Shown here: positions 2,906 through 31,900 of the stretch, piece after piece
Layout of the letters: each line of letters starts with the position of its first letter
How positions within the stretch are numbered: position 1 is the stretch's first letter
Assembly (NCBI RefSeq): GCF_003144245.1
Contig: NW_020289980.1
Span: 558,001-622,000, forward strand
DNA length: 64,000 nucleotides
Direction of reading: 5' to 3'
Source: Jaminaea rosea
Lineage: Eukaryota > Basidiomycota > Exobasidiomycetes > Microstromatales
Position numbers and translations under genes: made by a program
The notes under the pieces: model-generated
What the model was told of the DNA's origin: nothing
Database searches by the model: none
What the model saw: only the letters and a program-made list of their open reading frames with translations

Positions 2906-5900
2906 TCACGCCTTCCTCCTCACGCTCATCAAACGACTCAGCCTGCCGCCAGACGAGCCGCCCAATGTGCTAGCCCCGCTCGACGAGAAGATGCTCTTCG
3001 ATCCTGCCCTGACGCTGTGTCCGTCGTTTGACTGCATTGGCGAGCCAGCAGATGTCGACGCTCGCGGCTCACGCGGCACAGGCGTGCCTGCAACTCCTCC
3101 TCCACCGCCGCCGCCGCTATTACCTCCTGAGGGTCGAGCTGTCGAGGCGAGCGAAACCGTGTCCATCGCTGGTCCCCTTGCCGCCACTGCAGACGGCAAT
3201 GCATCCCCACCCGTGACGATGCTGCTCTTCTGACCTGCACTGGCCTGCTTGGCAAGCAAAGCAATATGTCGCTGTAATGGGCTAGTCGCAGAGCTCAGAG
3301 CTTCATGCGAATCGTACTCGCGCCTCTGCAATCGGTTGCTCGAGTCCAAGGAGTAGGCAGCCGGACGAAGCGGAGCTGCAGAGGCCGTCATCTTGCCTGC
3401 GGCATCGAGGTGAGCCCGTGAGGCCTCTTCGTCTTCCTTTTGTTGGTCGAAGGCCTTCTTCTCGGTCAGCTCGCGGGCCTCTCCTGCAAAGTTCTCCGCA
3501 AAGAAGCGCTCCAATGTCTCATGGAAGGGTTTCATCTCTGGTGGACAGAGACGCGCGTGCAGCTTGATGCAGCGTGAGATGACAGTCGCTTGACGGAAGA
3601 TGCTTTCGCGCAAGCGGCCTGCCTCGTCACCATTGATCACGTCGTTGCCCGAGAGAAAAGCCTTCTTGTAGAGCGGAATGCCGCCATTGACTGGCGCATC
3701 TACGGCACCATTGAGGGCCATTGCTAGTCGATTGGTGTTGACACCAGGTTTGGCACGCGCATACTTCTTCTCCAAACTATTGAGCTCCGCCGTCTTACCC
3801 TCAATGTCATTGATAGCGTTCTCGAGCGGCGAGATCTCGACGACGTGAACCTCGGCGACTTCGCTTCGACGCAGCACCGTAGGGAAGGCGTCTTCGCAGC
3901 GCAAATACGTCTTCTCGACCCATCTCTCCGCCACATTGTCTCCGCCGCGAAGGGGCCGCGAGAAAGAAAAGAGGCTCGTGGCGTTGTGCTCGTAGTAGCT
4001 GCGCACGTTGGGAGGCACGTCGGGATTGACGAAAACGTCGCGGCTGCGGTCCGGCTCTGGCTGAAGCATCGTGACCTGAAGGTACAAGCCTTCGGCGTCC
4101 GGCGGTTCGGCTGTCTTGATGAGAATGGCCCCAGGATGCTTTTGCTGGAGTCGCTCGCAGAAGACAGGAAGTTTTTCCCAGTCCAGGCCGCGGTAAACGA
4201 ACATCTTTTGCTGAAGCGAAGCCGGCCCTGCGAGGCGGTAAAGGGACAGGGGTGTTAATTGGGCGTAGTTCTGGTGGATGAGCTGATCTTCGCGTGTACT
4301 CACATCCACCGCCGTAGTAGGCCACACGAAAGTAGGCGGGGAAGACGCGCTCCGTGGCTGCAATCTTGCGGAAGAGCGAAGCCTGATAGGTCATCACTTC
4401 TGCCAATCGTAGATAGTCGACAGCTCGGTACTCGTACTGCTGTGCCAGCTCTCGGCAGATGTCTATGGAAATCTCCCATGCCTGACCCTTGCCCAGATAG
4501 TCGAGGATCAGCATGTAGAGCGTCTCGCGTCGCGCAAAAGTCGATTGGCGCGGTAGGGATAGCTCAGCGATGGGTTCAACGTAGCTGTCTGTCTCCCATG
4601 TATGCAGGTCAGCGTGCAGCTTGAGCGTGAGCGCTGCCTCGATGTAGTCGTGGTTGCCGAGGTGCAGGTTGACCAGATTCAAGACGTGGCTTGAGAAAGC
4701 GCTGACGCGGTTGGCCTGGCGGAGGAAACCGAGCAGCTTCAAAGTACCAGCAATGCGGTCGTCCTCAAAGCCGGAGTCTAGGGGCAGGGCCCGCACGCTG
4801 AGGAGCAGATCGAGGAAGCGATTGACCGATACGAGGCAGGAGAAGACTTGCTCTTGCAATTTCTCGTCAACGTCGGCACCTTCGAAGAGGGCACGCAGCT
4901 GGCCAATGAAGAACGCTCGGGAAATCTCGTCGCCGCGTGATCTCATGAGTACATCGAGCTTGTCGATGATTTCTGCCTCGATGACGGAGAAGTTGCCATT
5001 GAGGTGCCACTCGGAGGTTATCATGGTAGCCAAGACTTGCACCGCACATGTCCTCAGCTCGTCATGGTGAGAGAGGCAGAGCTCCAGAACAGGCTCTACA
5101 AGATCCGGTACGAACTGCACTTGAAAGCCGCCAGTAGTGAGGGACTGTGGGCCGATATGATGTTGCTCCGCCTGTGCATCGCCGATCGAGTTCCAGAGCT
5201 TGGCAAAGATGCGCGCACCTTCACCTCGAATGTCGCCAGCCAAACGCCAGACCGCTCGCCTTCTCTGCGGTTTGAAGTTCTCGACCACCAGCTGCTCGCT
5301 GCAGAGGAGGGTGAGCAGCATCGTCAAGCACCCTTTCCACAGCGGTGTGTCGAAGGACGATGCTCGGTCTGGCGCAGGTATGAAGTCGCGCACCATGAGC
5401 GCGGCCAGTGGGTCTGCCATCTTGAGTATCATTTGATGAGCAAGAACGTTGATGTTCAGCCAGCTCGATGGGTATGCTTCATTGCGCAGGATTGACGTTG
5501 CCACCGCAAAGAAGTCGTGAAGGAAGTGCGCCAGCTTCTCCGGTCCTTCGAGGTCGAGCTGCTCCTCTAAGAAGCCAGCGAGATGCTTGCGCGGGCTCAG
5601 AGTGACCAACATGGTGAGGATGGCTGCAATCTCGCCCAAGCCGCAGTTCAGGATGGCGTCTGAGCTGGCGCTGTCGTTCGCGTGAGGTGGGGATGCAGCG
5701 ATGATGGCAAATGGGTAGCTTGAAGGGAAAATGACCGGGATAGCGGACGCCACCGTCGAAGGACTGCGATGACACTCGATTGCTTTGATTGTCTCCTCGC
5801 TGCGCAGCTCCTTGTAGGTCTCGAGGAGGCGTGGGATCATAGAAAGGACGTAATCAACGTTGTCCTGCTCCTGTCTGACTTCAGCTGGCGTGGCGGCATC

Positions 5901-8900
5901 TCTCAGAGCCGTCTGCAGGCGATCCAGGATGATGGCCAAGACGGTAGTGGCGAGGCGGGCGCTATCAAAAGGCGAAATGAACGTCAGCTCAGGCTCTCAG
6001 ACAGTAGGCGGGCTCACTTTCTCACCTCTCGACCCAAGTGATGCGGGCAGCATCTGTACTGGTAGCCTCGTTGCCTTTCTCCGGCGCAAAGTGCGGACGG
6101 ATCCACCTTATGACGCTGGGTATCAGATGAGCGCGCGATGAAGGGTGGTCAAACAGCGGGCCTTCACAGACTTGAATGATGTGTAGCAGCTTCCACACGA
6201 CGAGACGCCCCTTCGTTATGAAGATGGCGTCAGCAAAAGCCGCCTCAAGGCCGATGAGCTCGTCAATGTCGTAAACGCGGGCCAGGTCCGGAAGGATCTC
6301 AGCAAAGTGCTGCAGAGCTAGCGTCTGCGTGCCGACGATCGATGGCGGCTTCGTTGCTGACATGAGGCGGTTGATGCTACGCAGCAGAGAGTCGAGGTCT
6401 GTGCGGAACTTGGCTTGAAGGTGGTCGCCCAGAGCCCCTACGTCGCGTTGCAGTTCGCGCGATCGCACGATGAACTTGAAGAGGTAGGACCACACCTTGA
6501 TCGACGCCCTTGTTGCAGACCCAGCCGCATCGTCATTGTTGGCCAGTAGACGCGACATTGAAGCCATTAAGCGCGTGTGTGCCGTCTGTGAGTGGAAATG
6601 GCGTTCGATGTAGACGTCTAGAGTGGCTCGGAAGTTGTTGAATCGTCGATCCTGCACGATGCCGAGCACCGTCACCAAGGCATTGAAGACCAGATCGTCG
6701 CAGTCGGAGGCACGCGTCACGATTGCGAAGAGGGCGTCGAAGATGTCACGCAGGAATTTGACAATCTCGACTTCGCCGACGAAGGTGAACTTGGTCAATA
6801 CACTCTTGAGTTCCTCGTGGTCTTCGATGCGCTCCCAGTGCAGGAGCTTCAGCAGGACGTCGTTCTGCGTGTAGCGAGTGGAAACGAGGAAGGAGCGAAG
6901 CATGATGGTGTCGCGAAGCGGCTGAATGACCGTAGTGAGGCTGGCAGGCACAACATCGGAGAGGGAGCCATTCGTTGGCACGGTGGCTGGCAGAGAGAAG
7001 TAGAGCTCGGGACTCGCTGGTCCACGCCAGAGGAGTAGAGTGTGGGAGCCGTCTTGGATGAATGCAGAGTGCGGGCCGGCTTCGTGGTGTCCAAAGAGGG
7101 GTAAGTAGGCGTGTGCAAAGGGAGATGACTCCATCGCCGCGCCAGTCGCCTCCTTCGAGCTGCGGTGACGGAACGTCAAGAAAAGGTGGCACTGCTCCAA
7201 CGCCTCGTCGGGCAGCTCTAACTTGATGAGTTCTCCCCATGTCGGCGCATTCTGGTGATAGAAGACCATCGAGTCGAATTGCGTCATGCGTGGCTCTCCT
7301 GAGCCCCGCGAGATGACTCTCTCAAGCACTCGACCGTCCCTCGTACGCACATCGATGGACACTTGGACATTCTTTGCAGAAGATGCGCCTGGGATCTTGC
7401 CCGCCGAAGGGAAGAACTCGCCCGACCATAGCTTGATGTATGCCTCATTGCGGGAGTCGCCGGGAAAGACGACGTCGGGAAAGCCTAGACGCGCGGTGAG
7501 AGCGGCGTCGCGTAACAGTGAGGCGTTCTCGCGCACCAGTGACGGGGTGTCGCCGTGTAAGACCTGTAAAGAGGGACTTAGGAGTAAGCGAATTGAAGAG
7601 TGCGTCACCTTTGGATACGCTCACTCACCTTGACGTCGACATTGATGACGTCTGCGCGAGGAGACTTTTCAAATTCTCGTATCCTCGATGCGATGATGTC
7701 CTGATGCAGCGTGCTGAAGGCCGCCTCGTTGACGGGAACAAAGATGGGCATGACGTGCTCCTTCTTGACCGACGACGAGTTAACGTCCGTCTCGAATTGA
7801 TGCTCCTGTCCCAACGAAAGTACGCCACACCCGAAAGGTCGTCGGAAGTTGCTCGTCATCGCTAATGAGCTGTCTTCTCGCGGACCGGTACGAACGATGC
7901 GGCAGACGACGTTGAGGTCTTGCATATCGCTGGCGCTCATGTCGGTGAAAAGGCACGTCATGCGCTTGGCTTGTTCGGTACGATGGTCAAGCACGACGCA
8001 GTACTCTTCTGTAAGGAAGCGTGCCTCTGGCTTGTTGTAGAGGGAAAAGTAGAGCTCGACGGGCGCGTCGAAGCTGGCTATGATGTTGCGCACCTCGAGG
8101 AAGAGGTGATAGTATTTGACGATTGGTGCCGGTGCAGGCTGAGCCGAAGAGGGCTCCTCGGACTTCCTCATCATTGAGCCAGCGCTCGACGACGAAGGGA
8201 GGGACGACATCGAGATTTGGCGCGTCTGCCTCTTTGCACGAATGCTCGTCGGTGCTGCGGCAAGGCTTGTGGCTGGGGCGACGACGCCGAAGGCGTTGGA
8301 TGCCGGTGCAGACAAAGCTCCTTCACCGTGTTGGTGTGGCTGCTGCTGTTGCTGGTCTACGTAGGCTAATGCGACTTGAAGGGCGTAGAGGCGAATGCCG
8401 CTGACCCAATTCTCGCCGCGCCCACCATCGTCTGGAGTGACCAGACCACCTCTATTCGGGTGTCGCACGATGACATCGAGACCTTGGGCGACGTTGCCCT
8501 TGACGAGTCTGGCCACGCACTCCTTGCGTAGCTTTGCTAGCTCCTCCTCACCGAGCGTCTGAGCCAAAAGCTGCCTGCGAGCAGCGTACAGAACATCAAT
8601 GTGCTGCCTGACCGTATCAAAGAGGGTATAATCGCGACGTTGGAGGTATGAATAGAGGAGGGTGCTCCATTCGCGCAATGCGCATGCAATCTCGTCTGCC
8701 AATGGCTCTGCTGTCCCACTGATTGTCTCATCGCCGCACTTGAGGCTGGGTAGCGGAGGTGGTGGCCTTGTTCGCGGTGCAGGTGCTGTTGAAGACTTCT
8801 CCTTCTGTCCTACCATGGCAGCTGGACTGTTGGGTACTGCGTTATCCTCATCCTCTTCCTCTTGAAGGGTGTGAAGTGCATTGCTCTGTGGCCCGCCACC

Positions 8901-9350
8901 TACGAGGCCGCTGGATCCGGCATTGGCCTCTTTGGCTCGAGCATGCATCTCTGCTAGTCGCATTTCAGCATCATCGAGGTATTCCCTCACATGAATGTTG
9001 GCAAAGGGGAAGACGCCGACGTAGACCTGAGGCTCTGCAGCGCTGGAGCTCGATTGGGCGGCGGACGAGACGACGTAGCCCCTCGCCCATTCGCTGCCCA
9101 ATGTCTCGAAGACATAAACCTCATCACCTACCTCGAGGCTGATCAGATGAGCTTCGAGGGCTGCCCTTGAGGCGTCATCAAGGAGACGCTGTGCCTGCGG
9201 GAGGATGTCGGCCTCGAGGGAAAACGGGCAGACGGCAAAACCATACTGGATCTTGGGCAGAGGTTGCCATGATGAAGGAGGTGGCGCTGTTGCAGAGGAC
9301 GAGTGATCGAGAGATGTCGCCGCATTCATCGCCATCAGCGACGAGGTCAT
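2906..9350 (-). CDS. DOCK-family (CDM/zizimin) Rho/Rac guanine nucleotide exchange factor
   Basis: Four exons: 9350-7629, 7563-6026, 5961-4304 and 4227-2906, joined by introns of 65, 64 and 76 nt, giving 2079 aa. An SH3-like segment lies at about residues 35-121. It is followed by a low-complexity linker, the conserved N-terminal DOCK block (HLFLEVRN, RRPFGCGVLSL), and the DHR-1/C2 domain from about residue 575 (GFPDVVFPGDSRNEAY, LFLTFRHRSS). The C-terminal DHR-2 exchange domain contains FRVAYYGGGWPASL, KMFVYRG and NAINDIEGKTAEL. DHR-2 catalyses GDP/GTP exchange on Rac/Rho/Cdc42-type GTPases, usually with an ELMO partner; yeast Dck1 is the best-known fungal relative and is similar in length. 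The last 200 residues are Ser/Gly-rich. An in-frame upstream ATG at 9539 exists, but the intervening sequence looks like 5' UTR. The exact GTPase target cannot be read from the sequence. Confidence 0.93.
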
Positions 9351-10062
9351 CAATTGGCCAAGTCGATCGGTGGTGTGGCTGTTAGCGAGAATGGAGCAAA
9401 GAGAGAGGCAGAGACAGCTTTCAGCTCGAGGGCAGGTCGTTGCAGCACGAAGGATGTCCAGTCGCCCTCCGTCTCGCCTCTGAGCGCAGCGCAGCCAGGG
9501 ACGTGCGTCGGCGCAACGCAAGTCGAGCACGACGCCCATTCGATTCGTCTTCGAGGCGGGGGGACGAGGCGGGCGGACTTTGAAACCAGGGGGGCGGGTT
9601 GACGGACGCCCGTCCACCGTAGCTCTTGACGCCACGGCGCTAGCGTCCAACACAGTCGGCCGGTCGATCTTCCGTACAAGCACATCGAATTGCGATCCTG
9701 CTCATCATCATGAGCTACAATTCAGATGTACAGGCCTCAGATCGTATCCTGCGTTCTCGAAATCTCACTTTGACCATCTCACGCCCTTCTCTCAAGCCCT
9801 CTGCTTCTCCCTCAGTCGCTGGAGCGAGGGGGATTCCCAGCCTAAAGAGCAGATCAGCAGCCCTCGATGAGCTTCCACAGACTCTGCATTAGTGTGAACA
9901 CGAGCGAATGGTGTGCAGCAAGTTCAGCGTCGCCTTGCAAGGCCGTCGTCCCGACTCCCTGTGCCTTGACGTCGATTGATACTTACTTGTGCATCGCAGA
10001 GAGGCCCAGTCGAGGAACCAGCTCAATCGTCGATGCGATGAGGATTCCGTCGTTCTGGTACA
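9351..10062. other. Intergenic region, DOCK promoter and dehalogenase 3' flank
   Basis: This 712-bp stretch lies upstream of the DOCK start and downstream of the dehalogenase-like gene. It holds only short unrelated open frames (for example a 60-codon frame at 9710-9892, plus) without domain signals. I see no tRNA, repeat or clear promoter motif. Confidence 0.5.
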
Positions 10063-11378
10063 TTACAACTTTGCTGACGTCTGCCCAGCACTCGGTGCCA
10101 TCCAATGCGCCTCCCACGTCTTTCCATCCTCTGACTGGGTCGCTACGGTCCTCTGTCTCGCCTCGCTACTCCACGCAAGATCTGCCAGCTTCGGGACATG
10201 TGCCGCCCATTCCTGAACGAAGTGCCCTCCCTCCGGTATGACATGACGCCAGCATCCCAGCTGCTTCCCCCAGGTCTGCGCAGACAGGTCGTCCATGACC
10301 TTCTCCGGGAAGACAGGATCTGCCGCGCCTATGCAGACGAAGACTTGGAGCGGCGTGCGTACCTGAGTCGATGCTGACGCAGTGTTGTCACTTAGCTGCT
10401 CCGGCTGTAGGGATCCGTAATAATGTAGAGCGGATTGAGATTCGGCGACGCCTGCTTGAGAAGGGCGAATGGGGACGAGTTGCTGCGGAGAGGGGCTCGT
10501 GGGGCATCAGAGAAGTGCTGGAGTTGCCCATCAATCACTCTCACTTACAGGAAATCGTCGCACGCCGGCCTTTGCACGCCCGTCGTGACTACCCGAGCCG
10601 TAGAACGGCAAGTCGTAATTGTCGATTTCCGACTTTGTCATGCTCTTTCGACCTCTGCTGAGCATGCGACCCACGGCAAGGTCGTGAGTCGAGGCCATGT
10701 ACTTGCGGAAATTTTCCCAGCCAGGCGAGGGAGACTTGCCCAAGCCGAGGGCGGTGTTCATGACGAGGAGATGCGTGAACAGGTGGGGAAAGAGGGGTGG
10801 GAGAATGAGGCCCAGGATGCCGCTACCGAGCGAGCAGAGCGTGAGCATGACGAAGGATTGCAGTCTCAGAGCGCTGTTACTCACCCCCAGTCTTGCACGA
10901 CAAGGACGCTTCTCGTCACAGGAGTCGATCCCTCCCTCTGCTCCACATGCTGGCGCACAAATTCGATGAGCCAATCCCGGTGTGACTGCCAGGTGTAGTA
11001 CTCATCCTGCACCGGCTTGTCACTGCGCCCGAAGCCAATGAGATCCGGTGCGACAACCCGGCGACGAAGGTAACGAGGCCCAGTGGTGCGTCTGGCAGGC
11101 GGATCTTCGAGCCAGCTCTTGATCATCTTGCGGTACAGATAGCTCCATGTCGGCTCGCCGTGGAGGCAGAGTATCGTCTCTGTCGCTACTGATTCTCCCG
11201 CGGGTGGATCATGTGGCTGACTCATGGCAACTCCCTGGCGCACATCGAAAATGCCAGATGTCTCATCTATCCAGGCATAACGCAGCCCGCGATAATGTGC
11301 GTAGTGAGGCGAGTAGGGGAAGTCTGGCAGCGCTGGAATGTCGTTGCAGCGAAAGACGGTCGAGGGCTTCGTTGACAT
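10063..11378 (-). CDS. Haloalkane dehalogenase-like alpha/beta hydrolase (HLD-I/DhlA type)
   Basis: Exons 11378-10885, 10822-10549 and 10482-10063 (introns 62 and 66 nt) give 395 aa. The ATG at 11378 was chosen because the more upstream in-frame start is TTG. The protein carries HGEPTWSYLYRKMI (oxyanion region, H73-E75), PDLIGFGRSDKP, and the nucleophile elbow VVQDWGG with D163 followed by W164. It also has a cap segment with W200 (SPGWENF), AGVRRFP, a likely acid D311 (GAADPVFPE) and H343 (GGHFVQEW). In DhlA the nucleophile Asp, the Trp next to it and a cap Trp hold the halide, and all three have counterparts here. The family splits carbon-halogen bonds in short haloalkanes; the real substrate of this fungal protein is unknown, and other alpha/beta hydrolase chemistry is possible. 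The bacterial-like motifs in an intron-bearing fungal gene suggest an old transfer (inference). Confidence 0.85.

Positions 11379-29570: not shown

Positions 29571-31900
<2,330 letters not shown>

Follow-up and report, generated by a model that had tools for sequence, protein, structure and literature searches.

A spliced haloalkane dehalogenase-like gene of Jaminaea rosea with an apparently displaced cap tryptophan and a PTS1-type C-terminus

The 64,000-nucleotide stretch of Jaminaea rosea DNA analysed here (the window) carries a gene with the motifs of bacterial haloalkane dehalogenases, which raises the question of whether a fungus has taken up such an enzyme from bacteria and, if so, what has become of its active site and of its place in the cell. 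Building on the observed sequence, open frame, catalytic residues, kinship, column positions and terminal tripeptide, we lean slightly towards the reading that the gene is a horizontally acquired member of haloalkane dehalogenase subfamily HLD-I, with a product retargeted to peroxisomes and a rearranged halide site. Exon joining showed that positions 10063-11378 hold one gene, which lies on the minus strand (11378-10063), a point absent from the preliminary description of this locus, and comprises 395 codons closed by a TAA stop (Table 1). The three exons with typical local introns that had been described there were recovered, as both introns are short, have canonical ends and are similar to those of neighbouring genes; the GH1 neighbour gene has a 64-nt intron, and a 64-nt intron in the DOCK neighbour gene is one candidate among several splice choices. 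When left unspliced, the frame of exon 1 meets an in-frame stop at 10881-10883, just inside intron 1.

Table 1. Positions of the gene's parts and of the residues discussed, with the relatives that carry an altered cap (L numbers denote relative loci, with positions in their own sequences)
Feature	Position	Strand	Remark
Exon 1	10885..11378	-	ATG at 11378; residues 1-164 and part of 165
Intron 1	10823..10884	-	62 nt, GTGAGT..GGTAG, phase 2
Exon 2	10549..10822	-	contains most of the cap
Intron 2	10483..10548	-	66 nt, GTAAGT..CGCAG, phase 0
Exon 3	10063..10482	-	TAA stop at 10065-10063
HGEPTW, residues 73-78	11145..11162	-	oxyanion-hole motif; HGEP as in DhlA
Nucleophile D163 and halide-binding W164	10887..10892	-	PDB and relatives alignments
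W200, cap Trp	10717..10719	-	at DhlA F172 column
F203	10708..10710	-	at DhlA W175 (second halide Trp) column
Acid D311	10318..10320	-	conserved column
Base H343 in GGHFVQE	10222..10224	-	conserved column
C-terminal extension, residues 361-395	10066..10170	-	past the end of most prokaryotic relatives
C-terminal tripeptide AKL, PTS1-type signal	10066..10074	-	protein ends ...GQTSAKL
W-x-x-F haloarchaeal loci	L018:562-1470, L022:562-1461, L023:565-1464
W-x-x-F Chloroflexota-search loci	L157, L161, L164
F-x-x-F loci	L046, L119, L122-L126, L130, L132

Relatives of the protein were gathered by several routes. A single-protein search of genome contigs and viral contigs found none, while plasmids yielded 31 records, from which 10 places were fetched. 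An alignment-based search of genome contigs gave 511 matches, of which the best 80 were taken, and the same kind of search of viral contigs gave three loci that were left out of the analyses. Three phylum searches were started from Lokiarchaeota, Chloroflexi and Eremiobacterota contigs and their best loci fetched; at a threshold of E 1e-40 or better the alignment matched 66 of 195 genomes in the Lokiarchaeota phylum, 30 of 251 in Chloroflexi and 21 of 148 in Eremiobacterota, not every such match being HLD-I. The resulting alignment held 171 distinct relatives, and for the cap counts the 144 scoring at least 250 bits were kept and the 27 weaker ones dropped. Across the 171 relatives, which include the best 80 of the 511 genome-contig matches, the nucleophile column is Asp throughout, the column after it is Trp in 170 and Tyr in one, the acid column is Asp in 167 (three gaps, one Glu) and the base column is His in 168 (three gaps). 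The window protein carries all four residues, D163, W164, D311 and H343, in an open frame. Thus HGEPTW, the D163-W164 elbow, the acid and GGHFVQE, as listed in the preliminary description, were all found again in the spliced protein. Its wider statement that all DhlA-type active-site residues are present did not survive, since F203 stands where DhlA has its second halide-binding Trp, W175.

The protein was compared with solved structures and family profiles. In a search of PDB sequences the top match was DppA (2xt0; E=2.4e-51, residues 16-356), followed by 7avr (DpaA), the DhlA entries and 5esr, and the nine best matches are all named haloalkane dehalogenase. We take DppA (2xt0) and 5esr to be HLD-I enzymes. 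DpaA has been described as a member of subfamily I (PMC10503415). Among the NCBIfam profiles PRK00870 gave 192.1 bits and two other haloalkane dehalogenase models, PRK03592 and PRK03204, gave 68 and 34.5 bits; the PRK00870 score falls short of that model's cut-off of 265 bits, which five prokaryotic relatives run as a control, DhlA included, passed with 302-386 bits. The closest relatives among the matches listed are prokaryotic, and the mainly alphaproteobacterial proteins among which the window protein nests reach 46% identity with it. The variable position of HGXP is reported to hold N or E in haloalkane dehalogenases and an aromatic residue in epoxide hydrolases (PMC5605520), and the window protein has HGEP. 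The Asn of HGNP that acts as a halide ligand in HLD-II and HLD-III, as in LinB with its HGNP, is likewise absent, E75 standing in its place; this Asn alone does not separate the subfamilies, because N fills the HGXP column in 33 of the 144 HLD-I-like relatives, whose genome-contig members come from the best 80 of 511 matches. The likeness to bacterial HLD-I that the motifs had suggested is thus borne out by the PDB search, the family profile and the tree described below, and judged from sequence the gene very probably descends from a bacterial HLD-I gene. What is claimed is descent from HLD-I and not a standard HLD-I site, because F203 occupies the second-Trp column.

The cap Trp that the preliminary description had pointed out does exist, as W200, but it sits at the place of DhlA F172, three residues from the W175 column. 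When the protein is aligned with DppA, DpaA, the DhlA entries or 5esr, F203 is the residue that falls at the place of the halide-binding cap Trp. The marker letters read GWTAWKYD in 1hde (Trp at 172), GFTAYKYD in 1bee (Tyr at 175) and GFTAWKYD in DhlA, and against 1hde and 1bee W200 falls on 172 and F203 on 175, with the nearest gap at least 5 residues upstream; the DppA alignment is gap-free across the cap region and gives the same placement, as do DpaA and 5esr. These letters were read from the alignments, while the DhlA position numbers and the mutant identities of 1hde and 1bee are in part our assumption. Column 203 was W in 86 and F in 4 of a first set of 90 relatives and W in 129 and F in 15 of the 144, and column 200 was W in 7 of the 144, the genome-contig relatives in all of these counts coming from the best 80 of 511 matches. 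Pairwise local alignments, which are noisier than the multiple one, gave W in 119 and F in 25 of the 144 at column 203 among the matches listed.

The W-x-x-F arrangement of the window protein was found, among the matches listed, in six relatives, namely three haloarchaeal plasmid proteins and three proteins from the Chloroflexota search, and F-x-x-F in nine, which are the Lokiarchaeota locus L046 and eight loci from its phylum's search. Loss without a swap therefore also happens, because these nine have Phe at the Trp175 column and no Trp at 172. A single W-x-x-W member, L073, is a possible intermediate in the swap. A rule by which the cap Trp is lost only where HGNP supplies an Asn was tried and rejected, since the nine F-x-x-F relatives have Q (seven) or E (two) at that position and none has N. 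The rings of three DhlA residues, W125, W175 and F172, are positioned in front of the leaving group (PMC8197811), and an F172W mutant of DhlA was reported to have elevated activity with 1-chlorohexane (PMC1539030). Given that the W175 and F172 rings of DhlA face the leaving group, W-x-x-F keeps a Trp and a Phe there with their order reversed. By this analogy the swap may keep the chemistry, and a Trp at the 172 place may also fail to point its indole NH at the halide. No description of a W-x-x-F halide-site architecture was found in the literature searched.

A further feature, absent from the preliminary description, is the C-terminal -SAKL, a peroxisomal targeting signal (PTS1). From HFVQE to its end the protein runs for 53 residues, whereas in 148 relatives among the matches listed this stretch has a median length of 21 and never exceeds 37; no ending of the form [SAC][KRH][LM] occurs in the 151 relative loci (including 7 duplicates) from those same matches. 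By chance such an ending closes 7 of the 1240 six-frame ORFs in the window (0.56%), and composition predicts 0.35%. The -AKL tripeptide also matches the end expression [SA][RKHQNS][LI] that was applied to Ustilago maydis (PMC11842775), and a Pex14-type protein is encoded in the host genome (Pex14_N match at 5.5e-18). The product is likely, as predicted from its sequence, to be located in peroxisomes.

The origin of the gene was addressed with two trees. In an 81-row tree built with the two cap columns blanked, the window protein falls in a 9-row set (95/88) with proteins of Hyphomonadaceae, sphingomonads, Phenylobacterium and Methylobacterium and one acidobacterial protein; DhlA lies in the starred sets around it, which have 23 and 25 rows (96/93 and 96/94), and the HLD-I clade holding the window protein has 51 rows (100/100). 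The exact sister of the window protein is unsure, because its branch is long (2.13) and several of the inner branches that lead to it have low support (54/41, 63/63 and 77/56 among them). A broader 40-row tree, which also took in LinB, further hydrolases and six alpha/beta hydrolases of the fungus's own genome, again placed the window protein in the HLD-I group (94/98), with a starred 13-row set (98/100) that holds it together with DhlA. Grouping with the six own-genome hydrolases was tried and the window protein stayed apart from them, a comparison that is coarse because those rows are long and partly filled. The outcome of the phylogenetic check that had been suggested for this gene, run with prokaryotic relatives and the six own-genome hydrolases, is thus a place in the HLD-I clade and not among the latter. 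Nesting among mainly alphaproteobacterial HLD-I proteins, together with the two spliceosomal introns, agrees with the bacterial origin and later intron gain put forward earlier, and an old horizontal transfer from bacteria appears supported. The coding sequence has 58.8% GC and the window 58.6%, in keeping with an old gene that has ameliorated.

The same 81-row framework was used for the cap swap. Joining the window protein with the three haloarchaeal W-x-x-F rows cost 54.8 log units, joining it with two of the three Chloroflexota-search W-x-x-F rows cost 61.2, and a single clade of all seven W-x-x-F rows cost 153.4; each grouping was rejected, with AU p-values of 0.015, 3e-6 and 5e-9, respectively, that are somewhat optimistic because the groups were defined by motif after a quick tree. 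On the tree W-x-x-F needs at least 4 changes. Given these rejections and changes, the swap is best read as recurrent.

In the proposal that we favour, an HLD-I-type gene would have passed long ago from bacteria, probably alphaproteobacteria-like ones, into the fungal lineage and there acquired two spliceosomal introns as well as a C-terminal extension with PTS1 at its end, so that its product would most likely be imported into peroxisomes by a Pex5/Pex14 route. Catalysis would most likely follow the two-step course of alpha/beta-hydrolases, in which D163 attacks the substrate carbon (SN2) and displaces the halide, and the resulting ester is hydrolysed by a water that H343 and D311 activate. 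The leaving halide would be held by W164 and by the cap residue W200, which we suppose to replace the usual second Trp, with F203 filling the former Trp175 place. In the cell the enzyme might help to clear peroxisomes of halogenated compounds or other electrophiles. That the enzyme actively releases halide is a prediction in which we place moderate trust. Only tentatively would we extend the proposal to a general one, in which a peroxisomal eukaryotic HLD-I has its second Trp moved by about one helical turn (175 to 172), the same rebuilding took place independently in haloarchaea and Chloroflexota, the halide site thus has two interchangeable architectures, and fungi clear organohalogens or similar electrophiles in peroxisomes.

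The readings that compete with this proposal differ in how much of it they give up. One keeps the HLD-I descent and drops dehalogenation, the enzyme instead hydrolysing a peroxisomal lactone, ester or epoxide from lipid breakdown, and we hold it possible although on balance doubtful. F203 at the W175 column and the peroxisomal ending would suit such an enzyme, and there are precedents in the HLD-III relative OleB, described as mainly a beta-lactone decarboxylase (PMC10503415), in a peroxisomal epoxide hydrolase reported from Ustilago maydis (PMC11842775) and in an HLD-related luciferase of a brittle star that has no dehalogenase activity (PMC12059646). The retention of W164, the whole triad and HGEP speaks against this reading, as does the fact that the Phe/Trp pair is swapped, not lost, in a swap that recurs.

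A reading closer to the preliminary description, by which the protein is an ordinary DhlA-type dehalogenase of the cytosol, its cap Trp serves as W175 usually does and -SAKL is there by chance, seems to us improbable. It has the strong HLD-I match and the intact triad on its side, and the chance frequency of a PTS1-like ending, at 0.35-0.56%, is not nil; yet the cap Trp stands three residues off the W175 column in all four sets of PDB alignments, Trp is retained in the usual column by 129 of the 144 relatives among the matches listed, none of the 151 relative loci has a PTS1-like ending, and the tail exceeds all 148 that were measured. Still harder to sustain, and in our view very improbable, is the absence of any transfer, whether the gene be a eukaryotic alpha/beta hydrolase that was inherited vertically and whose motifs are look-alikes, or bacterial DNA contaminating the assembly. 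A contaminant would not be expected to have two spliceosomal introns, host-like GC and fungal-genome neighbours such as the DOCK gene on the same contig, and vertical descent is at odds with the nesting in HLD-I with starred support and with the distance from the six own-genome hydrolases tried, even though the long branch of the window protein and a tree without fungal relatives speak in its favour.

Set beside known systems, the window protein resembles DhlA of Xanthobacter/Ancylobacter (HLD-I; L020, PDB 1edb and others), with which it shares the Asp-His-Asp triad, HGEPTWSYLYRKM, the Asp-Trp elbow and GHFVQE at 37.4% identity over 297 columns; DhlA has Phe172 and Trp175 where the window protein has W200 and F203, and the loops, introns and PTS1 tail seen in the window gene are missing from DhlA. 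In DppA of Plesiocystis pacifica, the best solved relative, the canonical cap Trp stands where the window protein has F203, and nothing in the 297-residue chain corresponds to the tail. The haloarchaeal proteins L018, L022 and L023 and the Chloroflexota-search proteins L157, L161 and L164 have the cap exchange and HGEP in common with the window protein; L018 and L022 are annotated as haloalkane dehalogenase and L023 as alpha/beta fold hydrolase, the haloarchaeal ones are 299-302 aa long, and the W-x-x-F relatives lack a PTS1-like ending. Among fungi, the epoxide hydrolase Ylehd of Yarrowia lipolytica is an alpha/beta hydrolase with promiscuous dehalogenase activity, but it is of the HGFP epoxide-hydrolase type and was placed away from haloalkane dehalogenases (PMC5605520), whereas the window protein has HGEP. 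The epoxide hydrolase of the Ustilago maydis peroxisome core, a fungal peroxisomal hydrolase for which xenobiotic detoxification was suggested (PMC11842775), is likened here by description. The HLD-II genes of animals and some fungi, luciferases included, are also of bacterial origin (PMC12059646), while the window gene is HLD-I. A Phytophthora capsici epoxide hydrolase gene from Methylobacterium is another alphaproteobacterial alpha/beta hydrolase in a eukaryotic microbe; in that case the host is an oomycete, the enzyme is an epoxide hydrolase and the transfer looks more recent, with 68% identity (PMC5023847). Elsewhere an up-regulated "haloalkane dehalogenase" has been reported in Aspergillus fumigatus (PMC11457522) and five dehalogenase genes in Schizophyllum commune (PMC9604129), which could be related to the window protein.

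In a 2025 study all eukaryotic sequences of the tree, drawn from the top 50 hits per query, fall in the HLD-II clade (PMC12059646), and because of this a eukaryotic HLD-I would widen the picture. A search of the open-access literature, with subscription journals mostly outside its scope, found no report that brings together peroxisomes, haloalkane dehalogenase and a fungus, which is weak evidence that no such report exists. If fungal relatives are common and already filed, the gene would be an ordinary member with two unusual features. The recurrent W-x-x-F cap offers a natural experiment on halide-site rearrangement, and the present case illustrates that a "DhlA-type" label taken from a motif list can put the second Trp in the wrong place. 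What haloalkane dehalogenases do biologically has been described as unclear to date (PMC10503415), and the present gene would be an approachable setting for studies of that role because it is a single-copy, spliced fungal gene with an organelle signal.

The host genome comprises 16.6 Mb in 21 contigs. It has 24 matches to the Fungal_trans domain, 22 of them above the family cut-off, against none in 14 control genomes. Searched with the window protein itself, it gave the HLD-I-like gene as sole match; searched with PRK00870, it gave scores of 100.5 and 42.9 bits for the gene's exons and 36.5 for the next place, all below the cut-off. Around the gene, 10 neighbouring ORFs within part of positions 1-32000 were compared with Pfam, and 8 had a match and 2 had none; the matches were to DOCK parts, a kinase, a DEAH-type helicase, GH1, a subtilase and an FAD enzyme, and there was no sign of a halogen-related cluster among these 10. 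The DOCK-family neighbour (2906-9701, minus strand) shows DOCK_N, DOCK-C2, TPR_DOCK and DHR-2 spread over three ORFs and is split by short introns. At 30127-31065 on the plus strand lies an ORF with a Pfam FAD_binding_2 match, and the ORF just downstream of it (31109-31900, plus strand) resembles, by eye, a cytochrome-b5-type end; the region 30127-31900 on the plus strand is possibly a fumarate-reductase-like gene.
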